64,000 bases of DNA from Hydrogenophaga sp. SL48 (GTDB lineage: Bacteria > Pseudomonadota > Gammaproteobacteria > Burkholderiales > Burkholderiaceae_C), in assembly GCF_021729865.1 (NCBI RefSeq), contig NZ_CP063400.1, positions 2,542,001 through 2,606,000 of the forward strand. Reading direction: 5' to 3'. Of the stretch, positions 46,426 to 61,310 are shown piece after piece; within the stretch, counting starts at the first letter, position 1; each line of letters begins with the position of its first letter. Under the pieces are notes generated by a model. It had not been told where the DNA came from, made no database searches, and saw only the letters and a list, made by a program, of their open reading frames with translations. Both the position numbers and the translations under genes were made by a program.

Positions 46426-47534
46426 TGACCTTCAACCAAAAAACGCTGGCCTGGCGAACAACCTGTTCTGCACTCGTCAGCGCTGCGGCGTTGCTGAGTG
46501 CGCCCGCTCAAGCCACATCCACCCCCACCGACGGCGCACCACCCGCCCCGATCGTGGTGACCAGCTATGGTGCTTCGCCCGCCGCCATGGCCTTCGCCGA
46601 CGATCTCGCGCTGCGGCGCGGGCTGGATGTGGACTGGGTGCGGCAACAGCTCGGCGCGGCACAACGCCTGCCCAACGTGATCCGCCTGATGACACCGGCC
46701 CCGAGTGGCGCCCACAAGAACTGGGCGGCCTACCGTGCCCGCTTCATCGAGCCCGTCCGCGTGCGCGCCGGCCAGCGCTTCTGGGAAACAAACCGCGAGG
46801 CCCTGGCCCGGGCCGAAACCGAGTACGGCGTGCCCGCGAGCCTGATCGTCGGGGTGATCGGCGTCGAATCGATCTACGGCCAGCACACCGGCAACTTCCG
46901 CGTGATCGACGCACTGGCCACCCTGGCCTTCGACTTCCCCGCCGTGCACCCCCGCGCCGAAGCCCGGACCGAGTTTTTCCGGGGCGAGCTGGAGCAGTTC
47001 CTGAGCCTCACCCAGCGCACCGGCATGGACCCTCAGGCGGTGCGCGGCAGCTACGCCGGCGCCATGGGCTGGCCACAGTTCATGCCCAGCAGCTGGACCA
47101 AGTTCGCCGTTGATTTCGACGGCGACAGCAAGGTCGACCTCTTCAACAGCCCCGCCGACGTGATCGGCTCCGTGGCCAACTACTTCAAGGCCTACGGCTG
47201 GCAGACCGGCCAGCCCACGCACTACCCCGTCGCATTCGATGCGACACGGCTCGACAAGGACGGCCTGCTCGCCCCCGACATCCTGCCCACGTTCGGGGTC
47301 GAGAGCTTCACCGCCAAAGGGGCGGTGCTCGAAGGCCCCGCCCTGCAACACACCGGCAAGCTGGCGCTGATCGAGCTGCAGAACGGCGACCCCGCCAACG
47401 GCGGCGCCCCGGCCACCTACCTCGCGGGCACCGACAACTTCTATGTGATCACGCGCTACAACTGGAGCAGCTACTACGCGCTGGCGGTGATTGAATTGGG
47501 GCAAACCGTGCAGGCCTTGGTGGAACGCCAGTAG
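46425..47534 (+). CDS. mltB: Lytic murein transglycosylase B
   Basis: 369 residues with an N-terminal signal peptide (about 1-30) lacking an obvious lipobox. The catalytic Glu is in LIVGVIGVESIYGQHTGNFRVIDAL; GSYAGAMGWPQFMPSSWTKFAVDFDGDSKVDLFNSPADVIGSVANYF is the MltB signature. It cleaves glycan strands forming 1,6-anhydromuropeptides. Translational coupling to tgpA ties that operon to peptidoglycan turnover. Convergent with the transglutaminase-like gene at 47684. Confidence 0.93.
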   Translation: MTFNQKTLAWRTTCSALVSAAALLSAPAQATSTPTDGAPPAPIVVTSYGASPAAMAFADDLALRRGLDVDWVRQQLGAAQRLPNVIRLMTPAPSGAHKNWAAYRARFIEPVRVRAGQRFWETNREALARAETEYGVPASLIVGVIGVESIYGQHTGNFRVIDALATLAFDFPAVHPRAEARTEFFRGELEQFLSLTQRTGMDPQAVRGSYAGAMGWPQFMPSSWTKFAVDFDGDSKVDLFNSPADVIGSVANYFKAYGWQTGQPTHYPVAFDATRLDKDGLLAPDILPTFGVESFTAKGAVLEGPALQHTGKLALIELQNGDPANGGAPATYLAGTDNFYVITRYNWSSYYALAVIELGQTVQALVERQ

Positions 47535-47683: not shown

Positions 47684-48520
47684 TCAAGCCCAGGGTCCGA
47701 TCCGGATGTCCACGTCCATGCTTTCTTCGCCCCCGCCGCGGCGCAGCCCCTTGATCGGCAAGCAGGCGGTGTAGTCGGTGGCGGCGGCCAGGCGGGTGTG
47801 GCGCTGATCGGTGGGGCAGCGGTGCGTGACGTCGAGGCTGATCCAGCGGCGCGTGGCCGGGTCCAGGCACACGTCGGCCCAGGCGTGGCTGGCGAGGTCG
47901 GGTTCGTTGGCCGCGTAGAAATAGCCGCTCACGTAACGCGCCGGCAGGCCGATGCTGCGGCACACGGCCACCATCACATGGGCCTGGTCCTGGCACACAC
48001 CGAGCTCCCAGTCGAACGCTTCGAGCGCGGTGGTCTCCACGCCGGTGCTGCCCTTGCGGTACTGCACCTTGTCCGCCACGGCGCTGGCCAGGGCCACGAG
48101 GTCGGCCACGCCGGGCAGCTCACCGCGCGCGCGCGCCGCCATCAGCGAGGGCACGGTCTGCATGGCCCACAGGGCCATGCGCGGGTGCGGCTCAGCCAGC
48201 GGTGTGGAGCGCAGGTAAAACGAGGGGTGCGGCAGTGTCGGCGGGTCGGTGAACTCGGCCACGCCGTGGGTCACCACCGTGCCCATGGCCGAGATGCTGT
48301 TCTCGCGCAGGTTCTGCTCGGGCCGGGCCACGAGGCTGAAGCTGTGCACGCGGTTGCCTTCGGTGTCGGGCTGCGGGTGCAGCGTGCCGGGGGTGCGGAT
48401 CTCCCAGTACTCCACCGTCTGGCAGGCGCTGCTGACGGGCCACAGGTGCAGGGTCTGCACCGTGTAGAGCAGCGGCTGGCTGTAGCGGTAGAGGGTGTTG
48501 TGGTGGATGACCAGTTTCAT
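47684..48520 (-). CDS. Bacterial transglutaminase-like cysteine protease (BTLCP), minus-strand set
   Basis: 278 residues. The N-terminal beta domain of the family (MKLVIHHNTLYRYSQPLLYTVQTLHLWP) precedes a transglutaminase core with Cys176 in LGVCQDQAHVMVAVCRSIGLPARYVSGYF, His in ASHAWADVCL and Asp in ISLDVTHRC. Cytoplasmic by lack of a signal peptide. It lies 198 bp after the alpha-E gene and 560 bp after its ATP-grasp partner's stop-side neighbour, in the same direction, forming the usual three-gene set. Predicted to hydrolyse or transfer the peptide made by the ligase. Confidence 0.85.
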   Translation of the reverse strand: MKLVIHHNTLYRYSQPLLYTVQTLHLWPVSSACQTVEYWEIRTPGTLHPQPDTEGNRVHSFSLVARPEQNLRENSISAMGTVVTHGVAEFTDPPTLPHPSFYLRSTPLAEPHPRMALWAMQTVPSLMAARARGELPGVADLVALASAVADKVQYRKGSTGVETTALEAFDWELGVCQDQAHVMVAVCRSIGLPARYVSGYFYAANEPDLASHAWADVCLDPATRRWISLDVTHRCPTDQRHTRLAAATDYTACLPIKGLRRGGGEESMDVDIRIGPWA

Positions 48521-48637
48521 GGGGTACCGGGATGGCACAAGGGAAAAGCCCCAGGTTGTCCAAGAGCCCCGCATGGTACCTGCCGCCGCCGTCCAGAAGA
48601 CACACAGCGAGCAGGGCAACCCCTGCGCGCCACAGCG

Positions 48638-48718
48638 CGCCCCAGGGCACAGCTGGGCCGGCTTTGCCGGACAGCCCGTGCCGCCCCTTGGGGGTGACGC
48701 GAAGCGGCGCGGGGGGAC
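48638..48718 (-). repeat. Structured stop-adjacent repeat, copy 6
   Basis: On the minus strand it begins immediately after the alpha-E gene stop. CCCCCCGCGCC start, CGCTTCGCG, CCCCCAAGGGG-type and CCGGC-AAA-GCCGG hairpins. Sense orientation relative to the upstream gene. Confidence 0.75.
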
Positions 48719-49681
48719 CTAATGCACCGTCGGCACCAGGAAGTCCTGGCTGATGCGGCCACCCAGCTCGTTCACGCGGTCGAGGAACTGTGTGAGGAAG
48801 GCGTGCAGACCGGTGGACAGGATTTCGTCGATGCGGGCGTACTGCAGGTCGGCCTTGAGCTTGCCGGCGCGGCGCAGCGTTTCACCCGATGTGTCGTTGG
48901 CCACCACGGCCAGGTTGCTCACCACCTCGTTCATGCTGGCAGCGAGGCTGCGCGGCATGTCCGGGCGCAGGATCAGCAGCTCGGCCACGCGCTCGGGCGT
49001 GATCACGTCCCGGTAGACCTTGCGGTAGACCTCGAAGCCGGAGACCGAGCGCAGGATCGCGCTCCAGTGGTAGAAGTCATACTCCTGATCCTGCTCGCTG
49101 GCGGCGCCGAAGAAGTCGCTCTGCACCGCGTGGAACTTCACGTCCAGCAGGCGCGCCGTGTTGTCGGCCCGCTCCAGGAACGAGCCCATGCGGTAGAAGT
49201 GGAAGGCCTCGTCCTGCAGCATGGTGCCCACCGCCACGCCACGCGAGAGGTGCGAACGGTGCTTGACCCATTCGAAGAACGCGCCGGGGTCGCGCTCGAA
49301 CTCCTTGGACTTGAGGTAGCCCGCGAGCTTGAGCCAGGTGGCGTTCTGCGTTTCCCACAGCTCGGTGGTCAGCGCGCCGCGCACGGCACGGGCGTTCTCG
49401 CGGGCGGCCCGCAGGCAGGAACAGATGCTCGACGGGTTGGACTCGTCGCGCACCATGAAGTCCATGACGTTGCGCGGCGTGATGTCCTGGCCGTATTTGG
49501 CGGTGTAGCTCGGCATCAGCTCGCTGATGACCAGCAGGCCTTCCCAGCCCACCTGGGCCACGGCGGCGGACTGCGGCAACAGGGAGGTCTGGTAGTTGAT
49601 GTCGAGCATGCGCGCGGTGTTCTCGGCACGCTCGGTGTAGCGGGACATCCAGAAGAGGTGGTCGGCGGTGCGTGAAAGCAT
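48719..49681 (-). CDS. Alpha-E domain protein, minus-strand set
   Basis: 320 residues, almost entirely helical. The family start MLSRTADHLFWMSRYTERAENTARML is followed by repeated helical motifs (SFLERADNTARLLDVKFH). Alpha-E domains are found beside or fused to circularly permuted ATP-grasp ligases; their role is unknown. ATG at 49681 is 2 bp from the stop of the ATP-grasp gene, so the two are coupled. A paralogous domain is the C-terminal half of the protein at 57536. Confidence 0.88.
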   Translation of the reverse strand: MLSRTADHLFWMSRYTERAENTARMLDINYQTSLLPQSAAVAQVGWEGLLVISELMPSYTAKYGQDITPRNVMDFMVRDESNPSSICSCLRAARENARAVRGALTTELWETQNATWLKLAGYLKSKEFERDPGAFFEWVKHRSHLSRGVAVGTMLQDEAFHFYRMGSFLERADNTARLLDVKFHAVQSDFFGAASEQDQEYDFYHWSAILRSVSGFEVYRKVYRDVITPERVAELLILRPDMPRSLAASMNEVVSNLAVVANDTSGETLRRAGKLKADLQYARIDEILSTGLHAFLTQFLDRVNELGGRISQDFLVPTVH

Positions 49682-49683
49682 GA

Positions 49684-51123
49684 TCAGTCTTCCAGAATCC
49701 AAGTGTCTTTTGTACCGCCGCCCTGTGACGAGTTGACGACGAGCGAACCTTCCTTCAGCGCCACACGGGTGAGGCCCCCGGGCACCATCTGCACCTCCTT
49801 GCCACTCAGCACGAAAGGGCGCAGGTCGATGTGGCGCGGCGCCACGCCGCTCTCCACGTACGTGGGGCAGGTGGACAGGCTGAGCGTGGGCTGCGCAATG
49901 TAGCCCTCGGGCTTGGCCCGCACCACGGCGCGGAATTCGTCCACCTCGGCCTTGGTGGCCGCGGGGCCCACCAGCATGCCGTAGCCGCCGGCGCCGTGCA
50001 CCTCTTTCACCACCAGCTCGGCCATGTGGTCGAGCATGTATTTCAGGTCGTCCGGGTTGCGACCCATGAAGGTCGGCACGTTGTTCAGGATCGGTTTCTG
50101 TCCCAGGTAGAACTCGATCATCTTGGGCACGTAGGGGTAGATCGACTTGTCGTCCGCCACGCCCGTGCCGACGGCATTGCAGATGGTCACGTTGCCGCTG
50201 CGATAGACGCCGAGCAGGCCGGCACAGCCCAGCGTGGACGTGGGTCGGAACACCAGCGGGTCGAGGAAGTCGTCGTCCACGCGGCGGTAGATCACGTCCA
50301 CGCGGCGCGGGCCCTTGGTGGTGCGCATGTAGACGAAGTTGTCTTTCACGAACAGGTCCTGCCCCTCGACCAGCTCGATGCCCATCTGCTGCGCGAGGAA
50401 GGCGTGTTCGAAGTAGGCACTGTTGTACATGCCGGGCGTGAGCACCACCACCGTCGGCTCGGCCGTGGTGGCGGGGCTCACGGCGCGCAAGGTTTCGAGC
50501 AACAGGTCGGGGTAGTGGGCGACCGGGGCCACGCGGTTCTGGCCGAACAGGTCGGGGAACAGCCGCATCATCATCTTGCGGTCTTCCAGCATGTAGCTCA
50601 CCCCGCTGGGCACGCGAAGGTTGTCTTCGAGCACGTAGTACTCGCCCTCGCCCTGGGCGTTGGGCGCACGCACGATGTCGACGCCCGAGATGTGCGAGTA
50701 CACGCCGCCCGGCACGTCCACGCCCATCATCTCGGGGCGGAACTGCGCGTTCTGGAAAATCTGGTCGGCCGGGATGTGGCCGGCCTTGATGATCTCCTGG
50801 TCGTGGTAGACGTCGTGGATGAAGCGGTTGAGCGCGGTCACGCGCTGCACCAGGCCCTGCTCCATGCGCTTCCACTCGTGCGAAGGGATGATGCGCGGGA
50901 TCAGGTCGAAGGGGATCAGGCGCTCGGTGCCGGAGCCGTCCTCGTCCTTGGCGCCGTACACCGCGAAGGTGATGCCGACGCGGCGGAAGATCATTTCCGC
51001 CTCCTCGCGCCGTGCCGCCATCACCTCTGCGGGTTGCTGCGCCAGCCAGTTGGCGTAGGCCTGGTAGTGAGCCCGCACCTCGGAAGGCGAAGCGTTCATC
51101 TCGTCAAACATCGGTCGGCTCAT
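49684..51123 (-). CDS. Circularly permuted ATP-grasp ligase, minus-strand set
   Basis: 479 residues. Diagnostic stretches are LIPFDLIPRIIPSHEWKRMEQGLVQRVTALNRFIHDVYHDQEI, SGVDIVRAPNAQGEGEYYVLEDNLRVPSGVSYMLEDR, TPGMYNSAYFEHAFLAQQMGIELVEGQDLFV and KEVHGAGGYGMLVGP (ATP-binding Lys/Gly loop in permuted position). Members are predicted carboxylate-amine ligases making amide or peptide bonds. First of the ATP-grasp, alpha-E, transglutaminase trio; comEC lies 96 bp upstream in the same direction. Confidence 0.88.
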   Translation of the reverse strand: MSRPMFDEMNASPSEVRAHYQAYANWLAQQPAEVMAARREEAEMIFRRVGITFAVYGAKDEDGSGTERLIPFDLIPRIIPSHEWKRMEQGLVQRVTALNRFIHDVYHDQEIIKAGHIPADQIFQNAQFRPEMMGVDVPGGVYSHISGVDIVRAPNAQGEGEYYVLEDNLRVPSGVSYMLEDRKMMMRLFPDLFGQNRVAPVAHYPDLLLETLRAVSPATTAEPTVVVLTPGMYNSAYFEHAFLAQQMGIELVEGQDLFVKDNFVYMRTTKGPRRVDVIYRRVDDDFLDPLVFRPTSTLGCAGLLGVYRSGNVTICNAVGTGVADDKSIYPYVPKMIEFYLGQKPILNNVPTFMGRNPDDLKYMLDHMAELVVKEVHGAGGYGMLVGPAATKAEVDEFRAVVRAKPEGYIAQPTLSLSTCPTYVESGVAPRHIDLRPFVLSGKEVQMVPGGLTRVALKEGSLVVNSSQGGGTKDTWILED

Positions 51124-51219
51124 GGGCGTTTTTCTCCTGCAGACAGCATAGCAAGGAGTGGGCCAGCGGTGTGAGAGTGGCCCCAAAGCAGTGCGCCTCC
51201 CCGCGAGGGAATGGACCGA

Positions 51220-53685
51220 TCAATCCATGGGTCTGGCGGGTGGAGCATCCGTGTCCGTGTCCGGTTCACCCGGTGGTGAGGGCTCCGGCCCGGTGGGCGC
51301 ATCAAAGTGGTGCCAATAGCGCCGCGCGGCCTGCCGGTGGCAATGCACCGTGTTGGGCTGTTCGCTGCGCCACAGGGCCGCACCGCATTGGGGCGACTCG
51401 ACCCAGGTGAGCCGCCGCGCCCGGTAGCGATCCAGCACCACCGGGGCCGGGTGGGCAAACCGGTTGCGGTAGCCCGACTGGATCAGCACCTGCCGGGGGC
51501 GCAGGGTGTTGAGCAGCACCGGGCTGCTGGAACTGGCGCTGCCGTGGTGCGGCGCCAGCATCAGGCTGGCGCGCAGTTCGGGCCGCGCCATGGCCAGGCG
51601 GGTTTCGCCCTCGGCGTCCAGATCGCCGCTGAGCCAGGCAGCCTCCTTCGCATTGCTCACCCGCAGCACGCAGGACATGGCGTTGGTCGATCGCAGCCCC
51701 TGCCCATCGGGGCCGTACAGCCCGGGCGCCGGGTGCAGCACCTCGAAGTCCACACCGTCCCACGCCCAGCGCTGGCCCGCCACGCAGCGCTCGCCCTCGC
51801 CAAACGACGACAGCCAGCGCGCGCCGGGCCAGGCGGCGCGCACGGCCGCCGTGCCGCCCGAGTGGTCGCTGTCGCGGTGGCTCACCACCACCGTGTCGGG
51901 CGCCTCGCCCAGCGCGCGCAGCAGGGGCACCACCACGCGCTGGCCGGCGTCGCTGTCGCTGCCGTGGCGCGGCCCGGTGTCGTAGAGCAGGCTGTGGTTC
52001 GCGGTGCGCACCAGCACCGCGCTGCCCTGCCCCACGTCGATCGCCATGACCTCGAAGGCGCCCTCGGGCGGGCGCGTCGGCTGCCATGCCAGCACCGGCC
52101 ACAGCAGCACCACGCCCGCCAGGCGCAGCGCCCAGGGCAGGCGCAACACCAGCAGCACACCCCCCACCACCCCGGCCACCGCCAGCGACATGGGCGGGAT
52201 GGCGCGAAACACCGCCGCCCAGGGCCATTGCGCCAGCCAGGCCAGCCACATGCCCAGGCCCTGCACCGCCCACGCCGCTGCGTCCCACAACGGCGACAGC
52301 AGCACGCCCGCGAGCGCCAGCGGCGTGACCACCAGCGTCACCCAGGGGATCGCGAGCAGGTTGGCCACCAGCCCGATCAGAGAGACCTGGCCAAACAGCA
52401 ACAAGGACAGGGGCGCGAGTGCGACGGTGATGGCAGCCTGCTCGCGCAGCATGCCGAGCGCCGACCCGCCCCAGCGCCGCCAGTGGGGCACCGCGTCCAG
52501 CGGATCGTCCCGCTCCCCCCGGGCACCCGAGGCAAACAGGATGCCCACCGCGACGAAGCTCAGCCAGAACCCCGGCTGCATCAGCGCCCAAGGGTCGAGC
52601 AGCAGCACCACCGCCATCACCAGCGTCCACACCGCGGGCCAGGGCCACCGCCGCGCCGACAGTCGCAACGCGACCACCACGGCCAGCATCAGGACCGTGC
52701 GCTGGGCGGGAACGCCCCAGCCCGAGAACAGCGCGTAGGCCGCCGCGAGCGCCAGGCCGCCCCAACCCGCCGCCACCGGGACCGGCAGCACCAGCAAGGC
52801 GCGCGGCCATGCCCGGCCCAACCGCCGCCAGAGCCGCCCCAGCAGCGCCGTGGCCAGCCAGGCAAACAGGGTGACGTGCAGGCCTGAGATGCTCATCAGG
52901 TGGGCCACGCCGGTGCTTCGGAACAGGGTCCAATCGCTGTGGTCGATGGCGCTCTGGTCACCCACCACCAGCGCGGCCAGCACACCGGCGCTGCGCGGAT
53001 CGTCCACCCGCTGGTGGATGCGCTCGCTCACCGCCTGCCTCGCGGCCTCCACGGGGTGCCACCCGCTCGCGCCGAGCCGCGCCGGCCGAGGATCGCGGGG
53101 TCCGTTGCGCACGTAGCCGGTGGCGCCGATGCCGCTCTCCCAGAGCCAGCGCTCGCGGTCGAACCCATGGGGGTTGCTGTTGCCGTGCGGACGGCGCAGG
53201 CGCACGGTCAGGCGCCAGCGGTCGCCGGCGCGCCAGACCGGCCCGGCGCCGACCACACCCCGGCTGTACCAGCCCAGCTGCAGCAAGGCGGGCAGGTGCA
53301 GGGGCTGGCCGTCCCGGGCGGCGGACTCCAGCGCGAACTCGAAACGCACGCCGTCGGCGCTGCGCTGCGGCAGCGAGGCCACGCGCCCCGTGACCTCGAG
53401 GTCGATGCCTTCGAGCGCCGGGGGCAGCGCCTGGGCCGCGAAATGCGCGGCCCGTACCCCCGTCAGTCCCGCGCCCGCCAGGGCGCCCGCGCAGAGGGCG
53501 ATGGCGACACCGGTGGCGTGCCACCCGTTTCCGCGTCGGCCCCAGCGCAGCGCCAGCCCACCCAGGACAGCGGCACCCAGCAGCCCGATCGCGTACACCC
53601 GCATCGGCCACAGCACCGCCTGCTGCAGTTGAAGCGCCACACCCAGCACCCAGCCGGGCAGGACCGCCAGCGCGACCCAGGCCAT
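51220..53685 (-). CDS. comEC: ComEC/Rec2 DNA-uptake channel
   Basis: About 821 residues. N-terminal helices and DUF4131-like beta domain (about 30-200); competence domain with GDQSAIDHSDWTLFRSTGVAHLMSISGLHVTLFAWL and some ten helices (about 230-530); C-terminal metallo-beta-lactamase domain with DVGQGSAVLVR and VVSHRDSDHSGG, and MLAPHHGS. It forms the inner-membrane channel for single-stranded DNA in transformation. The start is ATG at 53685; TTG at 53700 is possible. It shares a 144-bp divergent control region with the transglutaminase-DUF2126 gene. Confidence 0.92.
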   Translation of the reverse strand: MAWVALAVLPGWVLGVALQLQQAVLWPMRVYAIGLLGAAVLGGLALRWGRRGNGWHATGVAIALCAGALAGAGLTGVRAAHFAAQALPPALEGIDLEVTGRVASLPQRSADGVRFEFALESAARDGQPLHLPALLQLGWYSRGVVGAGPVWRAGDRWRLTVRLRRPHGNSNPHGFDRERWLWESGIGATGYVRNGPRDPRPARLGASGWHPVEAARQAVSERIHQRVDDPRSAGVLAALVVGDQSAIDHSDWTLFRSTGVAHLMSISGLHVTLFAWLATALLGRLWRRLGRAWPRALLVLPVPVAAGWGGLALAAAYALFSGWGVPAQRTVLMLAVVVALRLSARRWPWPAVWTLVMAVVLLLDPWALMQPGFWLSFVAVGILFASGARGERDDPLDAVPHWRRWGGSALGMLREQAAITVALAPLSLLLFGQVSLIGLVANLLAIPWVTLVVTPLALAGVLLSPLWDAAAWAVQGLGMWLAWLAQWPWAAVFRAIPPMSLAVAGVVGGVLLVLRLPWALRLAGVVLLWPVLAWQPTRPPEGAFEVMAIDVGQGSAVLVRTANHSLLYDTGPRHGSDSDAGQRVVVPLLRALGEAPDTVVVSHRDSDHSGGTAAVRAAWPGARWLSSFGEGERCVAGQRWAWDGVDFEVLHPAPGLYGPDGQGLRSTNAMSCVLRVSNAKEAAWLSGDLDAEGETRLAMARPELRASLMLAPHHGSASSSSPVLLNTLRPRQVLIQSGYRNRFAHPAPVVLDRYRARRLTWVESPQCGAALWRSEQPNTVHCHRQAARRYWHHFDAPTGPEPSPPGEPDTDTDAPPARPMD

Positions 53686-53829
53686 GTTCAGGTCCGGCAA
53701 GGTGGCGGGCGACCCGCCACCCGTTCATACTGCGATGGCGCGGGACTTGCTAGCCCACGCCTGAGCCCTGCGGGCAGCCATGTCGCCTGCACCACCATTT
53801 TTTGCCTCCCTGTTGAAAGTGATCCCAGC

Positions 53830-56800
53830 ATGGCCATCCACGTTGCCCTGAGCCACATCACCCATTATCGGTACGACCGACTGGTCAAACTCGGTCCCCA
53901 GGTGGTGCGCCTGCGCCCTGCGCCGCACAGCCGCACCAAGGTGCTGTCGTACTCGCAGAAGATCGAACCCGCGGGCCATTTCATCAACTGGCAGCAAGAC
54001 CCGTTCGCCAACTACCAGGCCCGCCTGGTGTTCCCCGAGCCCACCACCGAGTTCAAGGTCACCATCGACCTGGTGGTCGAGATGGCGGTGCACAACCCCT
54101 TCGACTTCTTCCTGGAGCCGCGTGCCGAGGAATACCCCTTCACCTACGAAGCCTCGCAGACCCAGGAGCTCGCGCCCTACCTCGCCACCGCGCCGCTGAC
54201 CGACGAACTCAAGGCCTACCTCGCCCAGGTGGACCTGAAAAAGCGCCGCACCATCGACTTCCTGGTCGACGTGAACCAGATGCTCCAGCGCGACATCTCG
54301 TACACCATCCGCATGGAGCCGGGTGTGCAGACACCCGAACAGACGCTGAAGCTGAAAAGCGGCTCCTGCCGCGACACCGGCTGGCTGCTGGTGCAGATGC
54401 TGCGCCACCTCGGCCTGGCCGCGCGCTTCGTCTCGGGCTACCTGATCCAGCTCGCGCCCGACGTGAAAAGCATCGACGGCCCGAGCGGCCCCGAGAAAGA
54501 TTTCACCGACCTGCACGCCTGGTGCGAGGTCTTCCTGCCGGGCGCCGGCTGGATCGGCCTCGACCCGACCTCCGGCCTGCTGGCCGGTGAAGGCCACATC
54601 CCGCTGGCCTGCACGCCACAGCCCTCCAGCGCCGCGCCGGTGGAAGGCGCCATGGACAAGTGCGAGGTCGAGTTCGAGCACCACATGGGCGTGACCCGCG
54701 TCTACGAATCGCCGCGCGTGACCAAGCCCTACACCGAAGAACAGTGGGCCAGCGTGGTCGCGCTGGGCAAGCAGGTCGACGCCGATCTGGTGAAGCACGA
54801 CGTGCGCCTCACCATGGGCGGCGAGCCGACCTACGTGGCCGTGACCGACCGCGACGCCGCCGAGTGGAACACCGACGCCCTCGGCCCCACCAAACGCGGC
54901 TACGCCACCGAACTGCTGGGCCGCCTGCGCGAGCAGTACGGCCACGGCGGCTTCGTGCACATGGGCCAGGGCAAGTGGTACCCGGGCGAGCAGCTGCCGC
55001 GCTGGGCACTGTCCATCTTCTGGCGCGCCGACGGCCAGCCTTGCTGGCACAACCCGGCCCTGCTGGCCGACGAACGCGACCCGGCGAAGTACGACGCCGA
55101 CGACGCGCGCCGCTTCACGCAGGCGCTCGCGCGCAAGCTCGGCGTGTCCACACAGTACATCACCCCCGGCTACGAGGACACCTGGTACTTCCTCTGGCGC
55201 GAACGCCGCCTGCCGGTGAACGTGGACCCCTTCGACGCCAAGCTCGACGACGAGCTGGAACGCGCGCGCCTGCGCCGTGTGTTCACGCAAGGGCTGGACG
55301 CCACGGTCGGCTACGTGCTGCCGCTGCAGGCCGACGGCGACGGACCACCCTCCCAACACGGCCAGAGCGCCTACCACCGCGTGTCGGGAACGCAGTGGTC
55401 CACCGGCCCCTGGTTCTTCCGCGACGAGCGCATGTACCTCGTGCCCGGCGATTCGCCCATGGGCTACCGCCTGCCGCTGGATTCGCTGCCCTGGGTATCG
55501 GCCGCCGATTACCCGTACCACATCGAGCAGGACCCACACACCGCGCGCGACCCGCTGCCGAGCGGCGCCACCGTGAAACACCAGGTGTCACCGCACCAGG
55601 TGGGCGGAGGTTTTGCCGAAGGCGGCATGGTGTCCCTGCAGGGCACGGACTTCCATGCCAGCGGCGCGTCCGCCGATGGCCAAAGTGCCGGCCCGGGCGC
55701 CGCGCCCGCGCAGGCCCTGTCGTCGAAGTTCCCGCAGCGCAATCAATCGGCCGCCTGGCTCACCCGCACCGCGCTGGTGGTCGAGTCGCGCGACCCGCAC
55801 CGCGCCAACGGACCCAAGGCCGAAAAAGCCGGTGGCGGCAAGACGCAGCACCTGTATGTGTTCATGCCGCCGATGCAGCGGCTCGAAGACTACCTGGACC
55901 TGCTCTCGGCGGTGGAAGACACGGCCGAGAAGCTGGGCATGACCATCGTGCTCGAAGGTTACCCGCCGCCGCGCGACCCGCGCCTGAAGATGCTGCAGGT
56001 CACGCCCGACCCGGGCGTGATCGAAGTGAACATCCACCCCAGCAGCAGCTGGGACGAGCTGGTCGAGCGCACCGAGTTCCTGTACGAGGCCGCGCACCAG
56101 ACGCGCCTGTGCGCCGAGAAGTTCATGACCGACGGCCGCCACACCGGCACTGGCGGCGGCAACCACTTCGTGCTCGGCGGCGCCACGCCGGCCGACTCGC
56201 CCTTCCTGCGCCGGCCCGAGCTGCTGGGCAGCCTGGTCGCCTACTGGCACAACCACCCCTCGCTGTCTTATCTGTTCAGCGGCATGTTCATCGGCCCAAC
56301 CAGCCAGGCCCCGCGCGTGGACGAGGCGCGCAACGACCAGCTGTACGAGCTGGAGATCGCGCTGCAGGAGATCGCCAAACAAAGCAGCCGCTACGGGCAA
56401 GGCCCCACCGCCGGGCCGCCCCAAGGCGGGGCAGCCCCCCCGGGGGGCAGCGGACCACGCGCAGCGGGGGAGCGTGGGGGCGACAGCTTCATGCCGCCCT
56501 GGCTGGTGGACCGCACGCTGCGCAACATCCTGATCGACGCCACCGGCAACACGCACCGCAGCGAGTTCTGCATCGACAAACTCTTCTCGCCCGACTCGCC
56601 CACCGGCCGCCTGGGCCTGCTGGAACTGCGCGCGTTTGAAATGCCTCCGCACGCCCGCATGAGCATCGCCCAGCAGCTGCTGCTGCGCGCCCTGGTCTCG
56701 CGCTTCTGGCAGAAGCCGTTCAGCCAGAAGCTCACGCGCTGGGGCACCGAGCTGCACGACCGCTTCGTGCTGCCGACGTTCATCCGCATGGACTTCGAGG

Positions 56801-57411
56801 ACGTGTTGTCCGACCTCGCCGAATTCGGCTACCCGCTGGACATGGCCTGGTTCGAGCCGCACTTCGAGTTCCGCTTCCCGCTGGTGGGCCAGATCGCCGC
56901 GCGCGGCATCGAGCTGACCTTGCGCAGCGCGCTGGAACCCTGGCACGTGATGGGCGAAGAAGGCGCACCCGGCGGCACCGTGCGTTATGTTGACTCGTCG
57001 CTGGAGCGCATCGAGGTGCGCGTCTCCGGCTACAACGACAGCCGTTACGTCGTCACCTGCAACGGCCGCGCCGTGCCCCTGCAGAGCACCGGCACCGTGG
57101 GCGAATTCGTCTCGGGCGTGCGCTACAAGGCCTGGAGCCCGCCGTCGGCGCTGCACCCGTCGATCCCCTCGCACGCACCGCTGACCTTCGACATCGTGGA
57201 CACCTGGATGAACAAGTCCATGGGCGGCTGCCAGTACCACGTGGCCCACCCCGGCGGCCGCAACTACGACACCTTCCCGATCAACGCCTACGAGGCCGAA
57301 AGCCGGCGCCTGTCGCGCTTCTTCCAGATGGGCCACACCACGGGCAAGATGAATGTGGCCCCGGCCACGCACAGCCGCGAGTTCCCGTTCACGCTCGATC
57401 TCCGGCATTGA
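53830..57411 (+). CDS. Transglutaminase-DUF2126 fusion (predicted GS-like amidoligase)
   Basis: 1193 residues. The N-terminal beta domain (1-85, MAIHVALSHITHYRYDRLVKLGPQVVRLRP) precedes a transglutaminase core with Cys180 (SGSCRDTGW), His229 (DLHAWCEVF) and Asp245 (LDPTSG). From about 300 to the end lies DUF2126, starting VRLTMGGEPTYVAVTD and including IEVNIHPSSSWDELVERTEFLYEAA, DGRHTGTGGGNHFVLGG and ATGNTHRSEFCIDKLFSPD; that domain was predicted to be a permuted glutamine-synthetase-like ligase. Residues 858-884 are a repeat-derived insert. The long open frame upstream of 53830 is antisense to comEC and not part of the gene. Leads the plus-strand set. Confidence 0.9.
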   Translation: MAIHVALSHITHYRYDRLVKLGPQVVRLRPAPHSRTKVLSYSQKIEPAGHFINWQQDPFANYQARLVFPEPTTEFKVTIDLVVEMAVHNPFDFFLEPRAEEYPFTYEASQTQELAPYLATAPLTDELKAYLAQVDLKKRRTIDFLVDVNQMLQRDISYTIRMEPGVQTPEQTLKLKSGSCRDTGWLLVQMLRHLGLAARFVSGYLIQLAPDVKSIDGPSGPEKDFTDLHAWCEVFLPGAGWIGLDPTSGLLAGEGHIPLACTPQPSSAAPVEGAMDKCEVEFEHHMGVTRVYESPRVTKPYTEEQWASVVALGKQVDADLVKHDVRLTMGGEPTYVAVTDRDAAEWNTDALGPTKRGYATELLGRLREQYGHGGFVHMGQGKWYPGEQLPRWALSIFWRADGQPCWHNPALLADERDPAKYDADDARRFTQALARKLGVSTQYITPGYEDTWYFLWRERRLPVNVDPFDAKLDDELERARLRRVFTQGLDATVGYVLPLQADGDGPPSQHGQSAYHRVSGTQWSTGPWFFRDERMYLVPGDSPMGYRLPLDSLPWVSAADYPYHIEQDPHTARDPLPSGATVKHQVSPHQVGGGFAEGGMVSLQGTDFHASGASADGQSAGPGAAPAQALSSKFPQRNQSAAWLTRTALVVESRDPHRANGPKAEKAGGGKTQHLYVFMPPMQRLEDYLDLLSAVEDTAEKLGMTIVLEGYPPPRDPRLKMLQVTPDPGVIEVNIHPSSSWDELVERTEFLYEAAHQTRLCAEKFMTDGRHTGTGGGNHFVLGGATPADSPFLRRPELLGSLVAYWHNHPSLSYLFSGMFIGPTSQAPRVDEARNDQLYELEIALQEIAKQSSRYGQGPTAGPPQGGAAPPGGSGPRAAGERGGDSFMPPWLVDRTLRNILIDATGNTHRSEFCIDKLFSPDSPTGRLGLLELRAFEMPPHARMSIAQQLLLRALVSRFWQKPFSQKLTRWGTELHDRFVLPTFIRMDFEDVLSDLAEFGYPLDMAWFEPHFEFRFPLVGQIAARGIELTLRSALEPWHVMGEEGAPGGTVRYVDSSLERIEVRVSGYNDSRYVVTCNGRAVPLQSTGTVGEFVSGVRYKAWSPPSALHPSIPSHAPLTFDIVDTWMNKSMGGCQYHVAHPGGRNYDTFPINAYEAESRRLSRFFQMGHTTGKMNVAPATHSREFPFTLDLRH
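56401..56481 (+). repeat. In-frame palindromic element inside the DUF2126 domain
   Basis: 81 bp (27 codons, residues 858-884) of GC-rich sequence with CCCCCCGGGGGG, CCACGC...GCGTGG and CCCCAC...GTGGGG pairings, encoding a low-complexity Gly/Pro/Ala stretch (GPPQGGAAPPGG). It resembles intergenic palindromes of Comamonadaceae rather than coding sequence and lies between two conserved blocks. It differs from the stop-adjacent repeat family. Confidence 0.7.
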
Positions 57412-57490
57412 CCCCCTGCGCCGCCCGCGGCGTCACCGCCCCGAGGGGCGCCAGCAGCGGCCCGGCAAAGCCGGTTCCGCGCTGGCCTGG
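57412..57490 (+). repeat. Structured stop-adjacent repeat, copy 7
   Basis: Begins at the base after the DUF2126 gene stop. CCCCCTGCGCC start, GCCGCCCGCGGC, CGCCCCGAGGGGCG and CCGGCAAAGCCGG hairpins, ending GGTTCCGC. In-operon, sense orientation. Confidence 0.75.
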
Positions 57491-57535
57491 TTGAAGACAC
57501 CTCCAGCGCGGCGCCGCTGACAAAAAGATGCTCAC

Positions 57536-60205
57536 GTGAAGGACACCACGGGACAAGGCGATGAAGATGCACCGGTGGCACCACCCGAAGTGCCCGCGCG
57601 GGCATACTCCAAAGCCGTGACCCCAGAAGAATCCAGAGACTCCCTGTTTGACGATCTCAGCCCCGACTCTCCCCGGGACTGGGCGTCGTCGTTCTCCATG
57701 GCGGCCGACGCAGGCCACCGCGACGAGTTGCGTCTGCCTGGCACCGACGACCTGGCACCCACCTGGGCCAGTTTCTTCGACCACGTCGGCACCGACGGCC
57801 TGGCCGACCTGAACCGCCGCAACGACAACCTGCAGCGCCAGATCCGCGACAACGGCGTCACCTACAACGTCTACGCCGACGCCGCCACCGGCCAGCAGCG
57901 CCCGTGGGCGCTGGACCTGTTCCCCATGATCGTGAGCCCGCAGGACTGGGCGAAGATCGAGGCCGGCGTGTTGCAGCGCACGCGCCTGCTCAACGCCATG
58001 ATGGCCGACCTGTACGGGAAGCGCGAGCTGCTCCAGCGCGCCCTGCTGCCGGCGGCCCTGGTGCAAGGCCATCCGGGCTACCTGCGCGCCATGCAGGGGG
58101 TCAAGCCCGTGGGCGGCACCTGGCTGCACATCGTGGCCTTCGATCTGGCGCACGGGCCGGACGGTCGCTGGTGGGTGGTGGGCCAGCGCACGCAGGCACC
58201 CTCGGGCCTGGGCTATTTGCTGGAGAACCGCATCGCCATCGCGCGCCAGTTCCCCAAGGCGTTTGCCGGCATGAAGGTGCAGCGCCTGGCCGCGAGCTAC
58301 CGCGCGCTCATGGACGGCATCAAGGCCATGGCGCCCGAAGGCGAGAACGCGCGCATCGCCCTGCTCACGCCCGGCCCCTACAACGAAACCTATTTCGAAC
58401 ACGCCTACCTGGCGCGCTACCTCGGTCTGACGCTGGTCGAAGGCAACGACCTCACCGTGCGCGACCAGCGCCTCTACCTCAAGACGCTCAGTGGACTGGA
58501 GCCGGTGCACGCGCTGATCAAGCGGCTCGACGACGAGTGGCTGGACCCGCTGGAGCTGCGCACCGACTCGCGCCTGGGCGTGCCCGGCCTGCTGCAGGTG
58601 CTGCGCGCGGGCAACCTGCTGCTGGCCAACGCGCCGGGCTCGGCGCCGCTGGAATCGAGCGCGTTGCTCGGCTTCCTGCCCGCCATCAGCCGCCACCTGC
58701 TGGGCGAAGAACTGCGCCTGCCCTCGCTCGCCACCTGGTGGTGCGGCGAAGACGCCGCGCTGCGCGAGGTGCTGCCGCTGCTCAAGGACAGCGTGATCAA
58801 GCCCACCTACCCGCAGTCGGGCCGCGACACCGCCATGGGCCAGAGCCTGAAAGCGCGCGAGCTCGACGAATGGTCGGGACGCATGGTGCGGCACCCCGAC
58901 GACTACACCGTCCAGGCCTGGCTGCCGCTCTCGCAAACGCCCACCTGGACCGGCGAGCACCTGATCCCGCGCTCGGCCATGCTGCGCGTGTTCGCGCTGG
59001 CCGACGGCCCGCAGAGCTGGCGCATGCTGCCCGGTGGCCTGGTGCGCCTGGCGCCGCGCGGCCAGCTCATGGCCTCGATGCAGCGCGGCGGCAGCAGCGC
59101 CGACTGCTGGGTGCAGACCGAGGGCGCGGTGGACCACACCAGCCTGCTGCAAAGCGCGCCCAGCACCATGGCGCTGGCCCAGCACAAGCGCCCGGTCACC
59201 AGCCGCGCGGCCGAAAACCTGTTCTGGCTCGGGCGCTACACCGAGCGCGCCGAAAACAGCATCCGCCTCGCCCAGATCGTGCTCACCCACCTGGGCGGCG
59301 AAGAGCCCAACTCGAAGCCGCTCATGGCCTGGCTCTCGGCCACCGCCCACGAAAACTCGCTGGTGCTGCCCGACGTGCCCGCCGCCGGACAATCGGCCCG
59401 CGTGTTCGCGCGCTCGCTCATGGCCGGCCTCTCGCCCGAGCCGGGCAGCCCGCTGGCCGGGCAATCGTTCAGCGTGGGATTCAACCTGCGCGCGCTCAAG
59501 GCCTCGGCCGCGCAGGTGCGTGAGCGCCTGTCGCAGGAACACTGGAACCTGATCGAGCGCACCGAAGCCGGCTTTGCGCGCGACTGCGCCGAGATGGCCG
59601 CCGACGCCGAATACGCCAACACCGAGGCCCTCGCCGCGCTGCAGAACGCGAGCGAGCTGCTGGCCGCCATCACCGGCGCACAGACCGACCGCATGGTGCG
59701 CGACAGCGGCTGGCGCCTGCTCTCGGTGGGCCGCCACATCGAACGCCTCATCACCCTCTCGCGCGCGCTCCAGCTCGGCCTCGAACACGGCTGCCTGCAC
59801 GACCAGGCCGGCTTCGAAGCCGTGGTCGCGCTGTTCGACAGCACCATCACCTTTCACGCCCAGTACCAGCAGCGCCGCGACATGGTGGCCCTGATCGACC
59901 TGCTGGTGATGGACCGCGACAACCCGCGCTCGCTGGCCTGGGTGGTGCAGACCCTGCGCTCGCGCCTGGCCAAGCTCTCGCAAAGCGCCACGCCGCAGGA
60001 CGCCGTGCTCGCCCAGGGCCTGCCCGACCCCGACACCTGGGTGCTCGCCGACCTGAGCAACTGGCAGCGCCACCCCGAAGGCGAGCGCCACTGGGGCGAC
60101 CTGGAAACCCTGCTCGAAGATTGCGAAGACGCGGCCGGTGAGCTCTCCGAAGAAATCACCCGCCTGCACTTCAGCCACGCCGACCGCAAAAATCAAAGCG
60201 TATGA
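57536..60205 (+). CDS. Circularly permuted ATP-grasp fused to alpha-E domain
   Basis: 889 residues. Residues about 90-560 are the permuted ATP-grasp (ALDLFPMIVSPQDWAKIEAGVLQRTRLLNAMMADLYG, TPGPYNETYFEHAYLARYLGLTLVEGNDLTV, VIKPTYPQSGRDTAMG); about 570-885 are the alpha-E domain (SRAAENLFWLGRYTERAENSIRLAQIVL). The two halves match the separate proteins at 49684 and 48719. The first ~60 residues are acidic and poorly conserved. The GTG start at 57536 is the longest option; a GTG at 57617 would also keep both domains. Middle gene of the plus-strand set. Confidence 0.88.
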   Translation: MKDTTGQGDEDAPVAPPEVPARAYSKAVTPEESRDSLFDDLSPDSPRDWASSFSMAADAGHRDELRLPGTDDLAPTWASFFDHVGTDGLADLNRRNDNLQRQIRDNGVTYNVYADAATGQQRPWALDLFPMIVSPQDWAKIEAGVLQRTRLLNAMMADLYGKRELLQRALLPAALVQGHPGYLRAMQGVKPVGGTWLHIVAFDLAHGPDGRWWVVGQRTQAPSGLGYLLENRIAIARQFPKAFAGMKVQRLAASYRALMDGIKAMAPEGENARIALLTPGPYNETYFEHAYLARYLGLTLVEGNDLTVRDQRLYLKTLSGLEPVHALIKRLDDEWLDPLELRTDSRLGVPGLLQVLRAGNLLLANAPGSAPLESSALLGFLPAISRHLLGEELRLPSLATWWCGEDAALREVLPLLKDSVIKPTYPQSGRDTAMGQSLKARELDEWSGRMVRHPDDYTVQAWLPLSQTPTWTGEHLIPRSAMLRVFALADGPQSWRMLPGGLVRLAPRGQLMASMQRGGSSADCWVQTEGAVDHTSLLQSAPSTMALAQHKRPVTSRAAENLFWLGRYTERAENSIRLAQIVLTHLGGEEPNSKPLMAWLSATAHENSLVLPDVPAAGQSARVFARSLMAGLSPEPGSPLAGQSFSVGFNLRALKASAAQVRERLSQEHWNLIERTEAGFARDCAEMAADAEYANTEALAALQNASELLAAITGAQTDRMVRDSGWRLLSVGRHIERLITLSRALQLGLEHGCLHDQAGFEAVVALFDSTITFHAQYQQRRDMVALIDLLVMDRDNPRSLAWVVQTLRSRLAKLSQSATPQDAVLAQGLPDPDTWVLADLSNWQRHPEGERHWGDLETLLEDCEDAAGELSEEITRLHFSHADRKNQSV

Positions 60206-60257
60206 ACACCCGCCAACCGGCGCGCGATCTGCCACCCCTGCAGCAGCGCCCCGCCAA

Positions 60258-60341
60258 GAACACCGCGGAACCGGCTTTGCCGGGCCGCTGGTGTTGCCCC
60301 CCGCCGGGGGGTGGCGCCGCAGGCGACGCGGGGGGGTGTTC
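60258..60341 (-). repeat. Structured repeat, copy 8 (start-adjacent, reversed)
   Basis: The same element in the opposite orientation to the flanking genes, ending directly at the ATG at 60342 and supplying its G-rich upstream sequence. Outer AACACC and GGTGTT arms, GGAACCGGCTTTGCCGGGCC and CCCCCCGCCGGGGGG hairpins. It is the only copy not placed after a stop codon. Confidence 0.75.
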
Positions 60342-61310
60342 ATGCTCTTAAGAATCTTGCACACCACCACCTACCGCTACCACGGCAGCGTGGACATGGC
60401 GCAGCACATGGTGCACCTCTCGCCGGTGGACACACCCACGCAGGCGGTGCAGGCCCATGCGCTGCGCGTGAAGCCCGAGCCCGCCGCGCGCAGCCAGACC
60501 ACCGACGTGTTCGGCAACCAGCGCACGTTTTTCTCGTTGCAGGCGCCGCACGAAACGCTGGTGGTGGAGGCCGACAGCCTGGTCGAGACCCATGAGCCCG
60601 GCCCCCTGCCCGACGACGCGGCCTGGACCGCGCTGAGCTGGGAGCGCGCGCGCAACCACTTCCGCTACCGCGCCGGCGCGCCCTACGACCCGGCGAGCGA
60701 ATTCCTGTTCGCTTCGCCCAATGTGCCGCGCGACGACGCCTTCATCGCCTTCGCCCGCCCGGCCTTCAGGCCCGGCCTGCCGCTGCTCTACGCGGTGCAG
60801 GCGCTGATGGAACGCATCCACACCGAAATGGAATACAAGACCGCCAGCACCGAGGTGAACACCCCGGCGCTGCAGGCACTGAAACAGGGCAAAGGCGTGT
60901 GCCAGGACTTCGCCCACATCATGCTCGGCTGCCTGCGCAGCCTGGGCCTGCCCGCGCGCTACGTGAGCGGCTACCTGCTGACCCAGCCGCCGCCCGGCAA
61001 GCCGCGCCTCATTGGCGCAGACGCCTCACACGCCTGGGTCTCGGTCTACGCGCCGCTGCCCGCCAGCACCGACGAGGCCGACGACGGTGAACCCGCCGCG
61101 CCCGAAGGCCTGTGGTTTGACTTCGATCCCACCAACAACCGCAGCGGCCAGGGCAGCCCGGGCGAGGAGTACGTGACCCTCGCCACCGGGCGCGACTTCT
61201 CCGACGTGTCGCCGATGCGGGGCGTCATCCAGGGGGGTGCTCGCCACGCGCTGCACGTCGGCGTGACGGTGGCGCCCCCCGAAGAATTCGGCGCCCTGCA
61301 GGGCGCCTGA
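60342..61310 (+). CDS. Bacterial transglutaminase-like cysteine protease (BTLCP), plus-strand set
   Basis: 322 residues. N-terminal beta domain (MLLRILHTTTYRYHGSVDMAQHMVHLSPVDTPTQ), then a transglutaminase core with Cys187 (GVCQDFAHIMLGCLRSLGLPARYVSGYLL), His230 (ADASHAWVSVY) and Asp262 (FDFDPTNN). No signal peptide. Third gene of the plus-strand amidoligase set and a paralogue of the protein at 47684. The ribosome-binding site appears to be formed by the end of the abutting repeat. Confidence 0.88.
   Translation: MLLRILHTTTYRYHGSVDMAQHMVHLSPVDTPTQAVQAHALRVKPEPAARSQTTDVFGNQRTFFSLQAPHETLVVEADSLVETHEPGPLPDDAAWTALSWERARNHFRYRAGAPYDPASEFLFASPNVPRDDAFIAFARPAFRPGLPLLYAVQALMERIHTEMEYKTASTEVNTPALQALKQGKGVCQDFAHIMLGCLRSLGLPARYVSGYLLTQPPPGKPRLIGADASHAWVSVYAPLPASTDEADDGEPAAPEGLWFDFDPTNNRSGQGSPGEEYVTLATGRDFSDVSPMRGVIQGGARHALHVGVTVAPPEEFGALQGA

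Follow-up and report, generated by a model that had tools for sequence, protein, structure and literature searches.

Why should one bacterium keep, on either side of a single comEC gene, two gene sets that both look like versions of one predicted peptide-ligase system? The question is raised by a window of 64,000 nucleotides from Hydrogenophaga sp. SL48 (NZ_CP063400.1), covering positions 2542001-2606000 of a single 5.43 Mb contig. The minus-strand trio, here called set 1, encodes a circularly permuted ATP-grasp protein, a free-standing Alpha-E protein and a transglutaminase-like protein; the plus-strand trio, set 2, encodes a transglutaminase-DUF2126 protein, a fused ATP-grasp-Alpha-E protein and a second transglutaminase-like protein, with comEC in between (Table 1, in window numbering). 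An initial annotation had described two complete copies of one system, brought about by a duplication that left one copy fused and the other split. Its gene content is sound: the six genes and the domain mix of both sets flanking comEC are recovered by Pfam, all the domains it named score above cut-off, and the outer coordinates, 47684..61310, are correct. The domain mix is also that of the system predicted by Iyer et al. in 2009, with its two kinds of candidate ligase (ATP-grasp and DUF2126). Duplication and completeness are another matter. The explanation to which we give somewhat better than even weight is that the sets are two operons of ancient origin that reside together and serve one amide-bond system used under nitrogen stress, in which set 2 would be a pseudo-ligase add-on that needs set 1. 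The parts of this explanation read from sequence are the domain content, the old paralogy, the loss of residues in set 2, the absence, from the genomes searched, of set 2 without set 1, and the sigma-54-type sites.

Two old types of ATP-grasp and Alpha-E

The comparison drew on 170 ATP-grasp and 166 Alpha-E domains taken from sampled genomes, from named plasmids and from 80 genome loci with names, those shorter than 350 and 220 residues, respectively, having been dropped beforehand. The 80 named loci are the best 80 of 594 confirmed; a single peptide pattern served to find them and similarity to a set 2 protein to rank them, and they favour set 2. Thinning by identity led to ATP-grasp trees of 82 and 41 rows and an Alpha-E tree of 109 rows. 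In the 41-row tree, which leaves out locus L145, fused and split proteins are divided by one branch, with support of 100/100 and recovery in 100% of bootstraps. The 82-row tree, in which the rows of the window were thinned away in favour of L030, gives the same division with L145 as the one exception, and L145 is again the single exception in the Alpha-E tree; it is a set 2 gene in pieces, with a broken frame. Drawn without an outgroup, the trees do not indicate which type is the older.

The fused type occurs in loci of seven phyla. The full order, transglutaminase-DUF2126, fused protein, transglutaminase, is found in loci titled Acidobacteriota, Verrucomicrobiota, Bacteroidota and Pseudomonadota, and partial sets, on contigs that end in or near the set, in Planctomycetota, Poribacteria, Chloroflexota and a 'Deltaproteobacteria' locus. 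Because one 100/100 branch separates the types and the fused type is present in several phyla, fusion or its absence is a stable trait that marks each of two old types; judged from the trees, the set 1 and set 2 ATP-grasps are old paralogues. A recent duplication within the lineage, with one copy fused and one split, would fit the position of both sets around one comEC here, but it is made extremely improbable by the depth of the fully supported separation and by the seven phyla, and local duplication was rejected on the ATP-grasp and the Alpha-E trees alike. The phylogeny of both proteins, which had been proposed as a means of dating the duplication, places instead an old separation of types in both trees.

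An arrangement with comEC between the sets is seen also in L030 (same genus), L136 (Comamonadaceae), L140 (Polaromonas CF318) and L142, with additional open reading frames separating comEC from set 1 in L030. In L137 comEC adjoins set 2, and in L029 (same family, no DUF2126) it adjoins set 1. Since comEC lies in or next to the sets in these relatives, the arrangement recurs; comEC itself was not considered as part of the ligase system.

Two further arrangements came to light among the loci. Genome G129 (L166 4259-6322) carries Alpha-E and a transglutaminase-like domain in one open frame, a third architecture, and in G124 (L016 6341-8776), where DUF2126 is lacking, set 1 ATP-grasp and Alpha-E adjoin a very divergent fused protein with an end branch of 2.77.

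Loss of ligase residues in the set 2 ATP-grasp

In an alignment of all the ATP-grasps, the set 1 protein of the window has E166, N168, K326 and K373, and these four residues, together with a Gly-rich loop, are present in 61/61 set 1 proteins. Among the set 2 ATP-grasps, E and N occur in 0/109, and at most one of the four residues remains; these counts include as set 2 the proteins L078 and L111 (fused, cut by contig ends) and L145, all three labelled split by the script. The places of E and N are taken mostly by Ala, Ser or Gly and by Arg, and that of K326 mostly by Pro, Gly or Ala; the first Lys is absent in nearly all, and the Gly-rich loop is degenerate. In the set 2 protein of the window G216, R218 and S375 replace E, N and the first Lys, while K422 is kept, so that the description of two complete copies fails on the ATP-grasp. 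Set 2 is nevertheless not decaying, because a W-W-C-G signature of its own is conserved in 97-106 of 106 rows per column. Both E-R motifs of Alpha-E are kept in the two sets.

What the lost residues might do is suggested by motif order. All 13 rows of the glutathionylspermidine-synthetase family have D..E-x-N, then N-K (12) or S-K (1), K-P-x3-R-x-G, and Q; the set 1 ATP-grasp has D..E-x-N..K..K-loop..Q, in the same order. E-x-N is the magnesium site of glutathione synthetase and Gss. From motif order and this background, E166, N168, K326 and K373 of set 1 would be metal and ATP residues. The overall fold of set 2 appears to be retained. An AlphaFold2 (AF2) model of the fusion (mean predicted local distance difference test score, pLDDT, 85.8; predicted template modelling score, pTM, 0.81) finds as its best match in a fold search the PDB entry 3n6x (E 1.9e-32), a set 1-like protein homologous to the set 1 ATP-grasp, followed by eukaryotic-type glutathione synthetases, YgiC and trypanothione synthetase; because the model matches 3n6x and the glutathione synthetases, the fold is taken as intact and the kinship as holding.

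These properties could also be read as those of a remodelled enzyme. Two independent active ligase pathways would then exist, the set 2 ATP-grasp using Arg in place of Asn and other acidic residues to bind magnesium, and yielding a different product. Strong conservation with a signature of its own, the fold of the model, and the retention of D203, K422, Q460 and R484 in the window are in keeping with such a site. The disappearance of E and N from 109/109 proteins, and of the first Lys and the Gly-rich loop from nearly all, speaks against it, as does, for independence of the pathways, the fact that set 2 is never seen alone; we consider this alternative unlikely. The set 2 ATP-grasp is, as judged from its sequence, probably a conserved pseudo-ligase. 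No mention of an inactive set 2 ATP-grasp was found in the accessible parts of the open full-text literature, a search outside which the 2009 prediction paper fell, and an earlier description is possible. The present analysis adds that set 2 probably contains a pseudo-ligase and that it is tied to set 1, and it extends a sigma-54 signal beyond the Burkholderia case described below.

Set 2 accompanies set 1

Co-occurrence was counted in 150 Pseudomonadota genomes, an Alpha-E open frame of at least 803 aa being scored as fused and a shorter one as free-standing. Alpha-E is present in 84 of the genomes. The fused form occurs in 44 of them, all 44 of which also have the free-standing form, and the remaining 40/84 have the free-standing form alone. 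The free-standing type is present, too, in 40/40 further genomes chosen for set 2 (by frame length, two doubtful cases having been checked), which were hand-picked from the 80 loci with longer contigs preferred. The genomes are related, and the counts are not of independent events. DUF2126 is found in 46/150 genomes, every one with Alpha-E, and 41 genomes have both it and fused Alpha-E. In the genomes searched, set 2 was always accompanied by set 1 and never seen alone.

In two loci of one family, L036 and L038 (genomes G076 and G036), DUF2126 adjoins Anbu and a set 1-type ATP-grasp and Alpha-E, with no fused protein. Such loci are a natural setting in which to see whether set 1 is a sufficient partner for DUF2126.

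Set 1 and the Anbu protein

The order of set 1, ATP-grasp, Alpha-E, transglutaminase, is by Pfam that of the published Anbu-operon trio, and in relatives the same order is followed by Anbu itself. The initial annotation had found no N-terminal nucleophile (NTN) hydrolase of the Anbu type, which is true of the window and not of the genome. A proteasome-family search gave two matches, one at 3789056, in a 193-aa, HslV-sized frame, and a weaker one at 2946747. The full open reading frame of the latter is the Anbu gene, at 2946462-2947286 (275 aa), approximately 356 kb from the set 1 Alpha-E at 2590737 and unlinked to it, and its absence from the genome was rejected. The search for its neighbours, likewise suggested at the outset, identified a mutS-like and a hydrolase-like open reading frame on its flanks, both named by reading the sequence. 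After removal of Met the protein has Thr1, Asp17 and Lys32, the candidate catalytic residues of Anbu (PMC6376114), and its homologues adjoin Alpha-E operons in other genomes. Anbu is present in 54 of the 150 Pseudomonadota genomes; 53/54 also have free-standing Alpha-E, and in 46 of these 53 the two genes are no more than 10 kb apart, while Anbu is unlinked in 3/3 sampled members of the window's own family. Set 1 is, on this evidence, an Anbu operon whose Anbu gene is located elsewhere in the genome. In vitro, phosphate is released from ATP by the ATP-grasp encoded in the Anbu operon of Yersinia bercovieri, in an assay that did not distinguish hydrolysis from ligation (PMC6376114), and Pseudomonas putida has raised Anbu under nitrogen limitation (cited in PMC5666114).

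A zinc peptidase, Peptidase_Mx, is annotated within the cluster of Caballeronia (L066) and next to that of Hymenobacter (L060), and a homologue is encoded elsewhere in the present genome (G000:C1:5064837-5065583). In G019, of the same genus, the stretch covered (L030 17334-18428) has another open reading frame beside Alpha-E, where no set 1 transglutaminase was detected.

Candidate sigma-54 promoters of both operons

The window was scanned for TGGCAYRNNNNTTGCW with up to 2 mismatches. The 19 matches at this level are below the 36 expected for 64 kb, and only two sites have a single mismatch; both are on the right strand and directly upstream, one of set 1 and the other of set 2. Relatives were examined with GG and GC required, up to 260 bp upstream, against expectations from dinucleotide shuffles, loci with fewer than 200 bases upstream or with N being excluded. 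Sites with at most one mismatch precede 20/61 set 1 ATP-grasps (expected 0.22) and 9/81 set 2 first genes (expected 0.38), although the loci are related and 6 of the 9 set 2 sites come from the window and from relatives with the comEC linkage. With two mismatches allowed, the numbers are 31 for set 1 (expected 1.87) and 17 for set 2 (expected 2.28). Internal genes served as controls: at most one mismatch was found before 0/62 free-standing Alpha-E genes (expected 0.25), 1/107 fused genes (0.22) and 0/106 second transglutaminase genes (0.30), and at two mismatches the counts were 1 (1.73), 4 (2.3) and 5 (3.2), respectively. Sites of this type precede 0/5 comEC and 1/24 Anbu genes, and no convincing sigma-54 site was seen upstream of either Anbu or Peptidase_Mx. 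A sigma-54 gene is present in the genome.

Both operons are thus apparently switched by sigma-54, to judge from these candidate sites, and their placement fits the published control by NtrC and sigma-54 of a Burkholderia cluster. In Burkholderia cenocepacia H111, I35_5080-83 are among the common sigma-54/NtrC targets, with table values of -6.0 to -9.4, and share a regulon with urea and amino-acid uptake genes (PMC5491218). In marine metagenomes DUF403/404/407 accompany urea-metabolism domains (PMC3597751). Nitrogen limitation is likely to be the inducing condition, and nitrogen control would be expected in the present organism as well. A lack of relation between the sets in expression, which the initial annotation would have counted against its reading, is not what the sites suggest: a putative sigma-54-type site stands before both. 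As a separate observation, an association study of nodule competition in Sinorhizobium meliloti had among its hits the regulatory region next to a gene of COG2308 (permuted ATP-grasp) (PMC8407117).

Transglutaminase-fold proteins and DUF2126

The expected Cys, His and Asp positions are all occupied in each of the three transglutaminase-fold proteins that the sets encode. The triad motifs are GVCQDQAH, SHAW and LDVTH in set 1, where Cys and Asp are at least 93% conserved and His less than 93% over 37 rows of the type, and GVCQDFAH, SHAW and DPTN in the second transglutaminase of set 2 (108 rows aligned); in the transglutaminase-DUF2126 protein C, H and D are invariant in 30 rows. Over 83 rows of DUF2126, 179 residues are at least 97% conserved, and the protein of the window has 178 of the 179. 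The loss of catalytic residues, which the initial annotation had named as refuting its reading, is partial, affecting the set 2 ATP-grasp and sparing the transglutaminases and DUF2126. In the AF2 model of the transglutaminase-DUF2126 protein (mean pLDDT 72.0, pTM 0.68) the transglutaminase part matches 3isr, a bacterial putative cysteine protease, and TgpA (6g49), and a glutamine synthetase (GS)-like fold for DUF2126 is hinted at by the model. A PDB sequence search returned nothing significant for the DUF2126 protein or for Alpha-E. DUF2126 would be the remaining candidate ligase of set 2; transglutaminase/DUF2126 proteins were, according to the accessible part of a 2024 paper, still without experimental study (PMC11597610).

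A proposed mechanism and its alternatives

From these elements we infer the pseudo-ligase status of set 2, the role of DUF2126, the order of steps and a product that is a peptide or amide. When nitrogen is short, RNA polymerase with sigma-54 would transcribe both operons. The set 1 ATP-grasp, of the glutathione/glutathionylspermidine-synthetase fold, would activate a carboxylate with ATP as an acyl-phosphate and join it to an amine, with the helical Alpha-E protein as its partner, and the transglutaminase-fold cysteine enzyme and Anbu would then trim or transfer the product. The set 2 ATP-grasp, its ATP/Mg site lost, would act with its fused Alpha-E as a scaffold or substrate-binding pseudo-ligase that probably binds the product or a partner of set 1, and the ligase chemistry of set 2 would fall to DUF2126, fused to a transglutaminase-fold domain. 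The outcome may be a small amide or peptide, or a protein tag. A more specific version, in which the pseudo-ATP-grasp-Alpha-E protein partners the active set 1 ligase and hands substrate to the unrelated ligase DUF2126, all under sigma-54, is offered tentatively, at distinctly less than even probability. If true, an assembly line for amide bonds would include a pseudo-enzyme as a subunit that it cannot do without, with the fused protein in at least seven phyla.

Two views of the product are compatible with the preferred explanation of co-resident operons. The first is synthesis of a small molecule or short peptide, for example an amide of the gamma-glutamyl or polyamine kind, serving as a nitrogen store or in protection of the cell. 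The nearest fold kin are glutathione, glutathionylspermidine-type and trypanothione synthetases, and the B. cenocepacia cluster is co-regulated with the uptake genes for urea and amino acids (PMC5491218); fold kinship does not fix a substrate, however, and we place this view a little short of an even chance. The second is protein tagging and degradation: the ligases would fix a peptide or an amino acid to proteins as a tag, and removal of tags, or breakdown of the tagged proteins for the recovery of nitrogen, would be the work of Anbu, the zinc peptidase or the transglutaminase-fold enzymes. Iyer et al. 2009 predicted tagging, according to PMC6376114; PMC5666114 favours degradation; and the genome encodes both Anbu and Peptidase_Mx. 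Yet no tag carrier, unfoldase or tagged protein is known, neither peptidase activity nor complexes were seen in the work described in the accessible part of PMC6376114, and Anbu is unlinked here and not tied to set 2; we consider this second view rather unlikely.

Several observations weigh against two co-resident operons with a pseudo-ligase in set 2. Set 2 is not an invariable unit: 5 genomes, two of them with the locus interrupted by a contig end, have DUF2126 and no fused Alpha-E, and 3 have the fused Alpha-E and no DUF2126. Among genomes with set 1, Anbu is present in 25/44 with set 2 and in 28/40 without it (p 0.26). For neither ATP-grasp type is a profile alignment significant, be it to E. 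coli Gss or to the 13-row family, set 2 following a long colinear path in its non-significant alignment to the family profile; because of this, the equivalence of residues is argued from motif order and fold. Set 2 retains the first Asp in 100/109 proteins, Gln in 99, Arg in 108 and the second Lys in 75, and unusual nucleotide chemistry in its ATP-grasp is possible. The DUF2126 model matches glutamine synthetases at E about 0.3-0.6 only, below significance and beside unrelated proteins. As to regulation, NtrC-type dyads are not enriched over shuffled sequence (34/60 vs 29.9 and 44/81 vs 41.9), and the sole candidate site before Anbu here lies 252 bp upstream, inside the mutS-like open reading frame, and is not there in G019/G082. 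Finally, Anbu peptidase activity and complexes of operon proteins were not found in the experiments covered by the accessible part of PMC6376114, and peptide synthesis was deemed less likely than degradation for Anbu in that of PMC5666114.

Alpha-E systems are widespread; their role was predicted in 2009, and the accessible parts of the literature examined report no confirmed function. The search is now narrowed by three facts: which ATP-grasp looks functional, the company that set 2 keeps with set 1, and nitrogen limitation as the likely inducer. Should the set 2 ATP-grasp prove to be a pseudo-ligase, assaying it by itself would fail, and the relevant experiment would combine set 1 and set 2 under nitrogen starvation.

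The locus and its neighbourhood

Table 1. Features of the two gene sets and of the comEC interval in the window
Feature	Position	Strand	Likely start	Evidence or remark
Set 1 transglutaminase-like protein	47684..48520	-	48520	Pfam Bact_transglu_N + Transglut_core
Set 1 Alpha-E, free-standing	48719..49681	-	49681	Pfam 335.9 bits
Set 1 circularly permuted ATP-grasp, 479 aa	49684..51123	-	51123	Pfam CP_ATPgrasp_2 549.8 bits
Candidate sigma-54-type -24/-12 site TGGCCCACTCCTTGCT	51150..51165	-		26 bp before set 1 ATP-grasp start
comEC	51220..53700	-		Pfam Competence 186.2 bits
Candidate sigma-54-type -24/-12 site TGGCGCGGGACTTGCT	53736..53751	+		78 bp before set 2 first gene
Set 2 transglutaminase-DUF2126 protein, putative amidoligase, 1193 aa	53830..57411	+	53830	Pfam Bact_transglu_N + Transglut_core + DUF2126 (1329.1 bits)
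Set 2 fused ATP-grasp-Alpha-E, 889 aa	57536..60205	+	57536	Pfam CP_ATPgrasp_2 474.5, Alpha-E 187.9
Set 2 second transglutaminase-like protein	60342..61310	+	60342	Pfam Bact_transglu_N + Transglut_core

The two Alpha-E matches of Table 1 are the only ones in the genome. None of the six set proteins has a match in NCBIfam, and none of the six matches a PADLOC model, on which ground an anti-phage defence system was rejected. Close to set 1 is a TgpA-like transglutaminase-fold gene (Pfam TgpA_N + Transglut_core; 44380-46425, plus strand), followed by an SLT_2 lytic transglycosylase at approximately 46290-47534; in Polaromonas CF318 (L165 1-2139) a weak transglutaminase match also lies near the sets. 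The intergenic stretches 48640-48718 and 60250-60340 contain similar G+C-rich pieces around a GCCGG/CCGGC palindrome, noticed by eye, perhaps a dispersed repeat.

Comparison with known systems

Set 1 is closest to the Anbu operon (PMC5666114, PMC6376114), with which it shares the same three proteins in the same order and the residues of the ATP-grasp and of Anbu; it differs in that the Anbu gene is outside the operon and that comEC lies directly upstream. Set 2 corresponds more nearly to the peptide-tagging system of Iyer et al. 2009, predicted with a permuted ATP-grasp and a permuted GS-like ligase (known here through PMC5666114 and PMC6376114): DUF2126, circularly permuted ATP-grasp, Alpha-E and transglutaminases are found together, whereas the ATP-grasp here is without E and N. 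The I35_5080-83 cluster of B. cenocepacia encodes DUF404/407, DUF403, transglutaminase-like and large transglutaminase-like proteins, all lower without NtrC (PMC5491218), and forms one cluster, whereas the present genes make up two operons that diverge from the comEC interval and have a candidate site apiece. With the glutathionylspermidine and eukaryotic-type glutathione synthetases, set 1 shares the order of residues and set 2, according to its model, the fold, but set 2 differs from them in having neither E, N nor the Gly-rich loop and, in nearly all its members, no first Lys.

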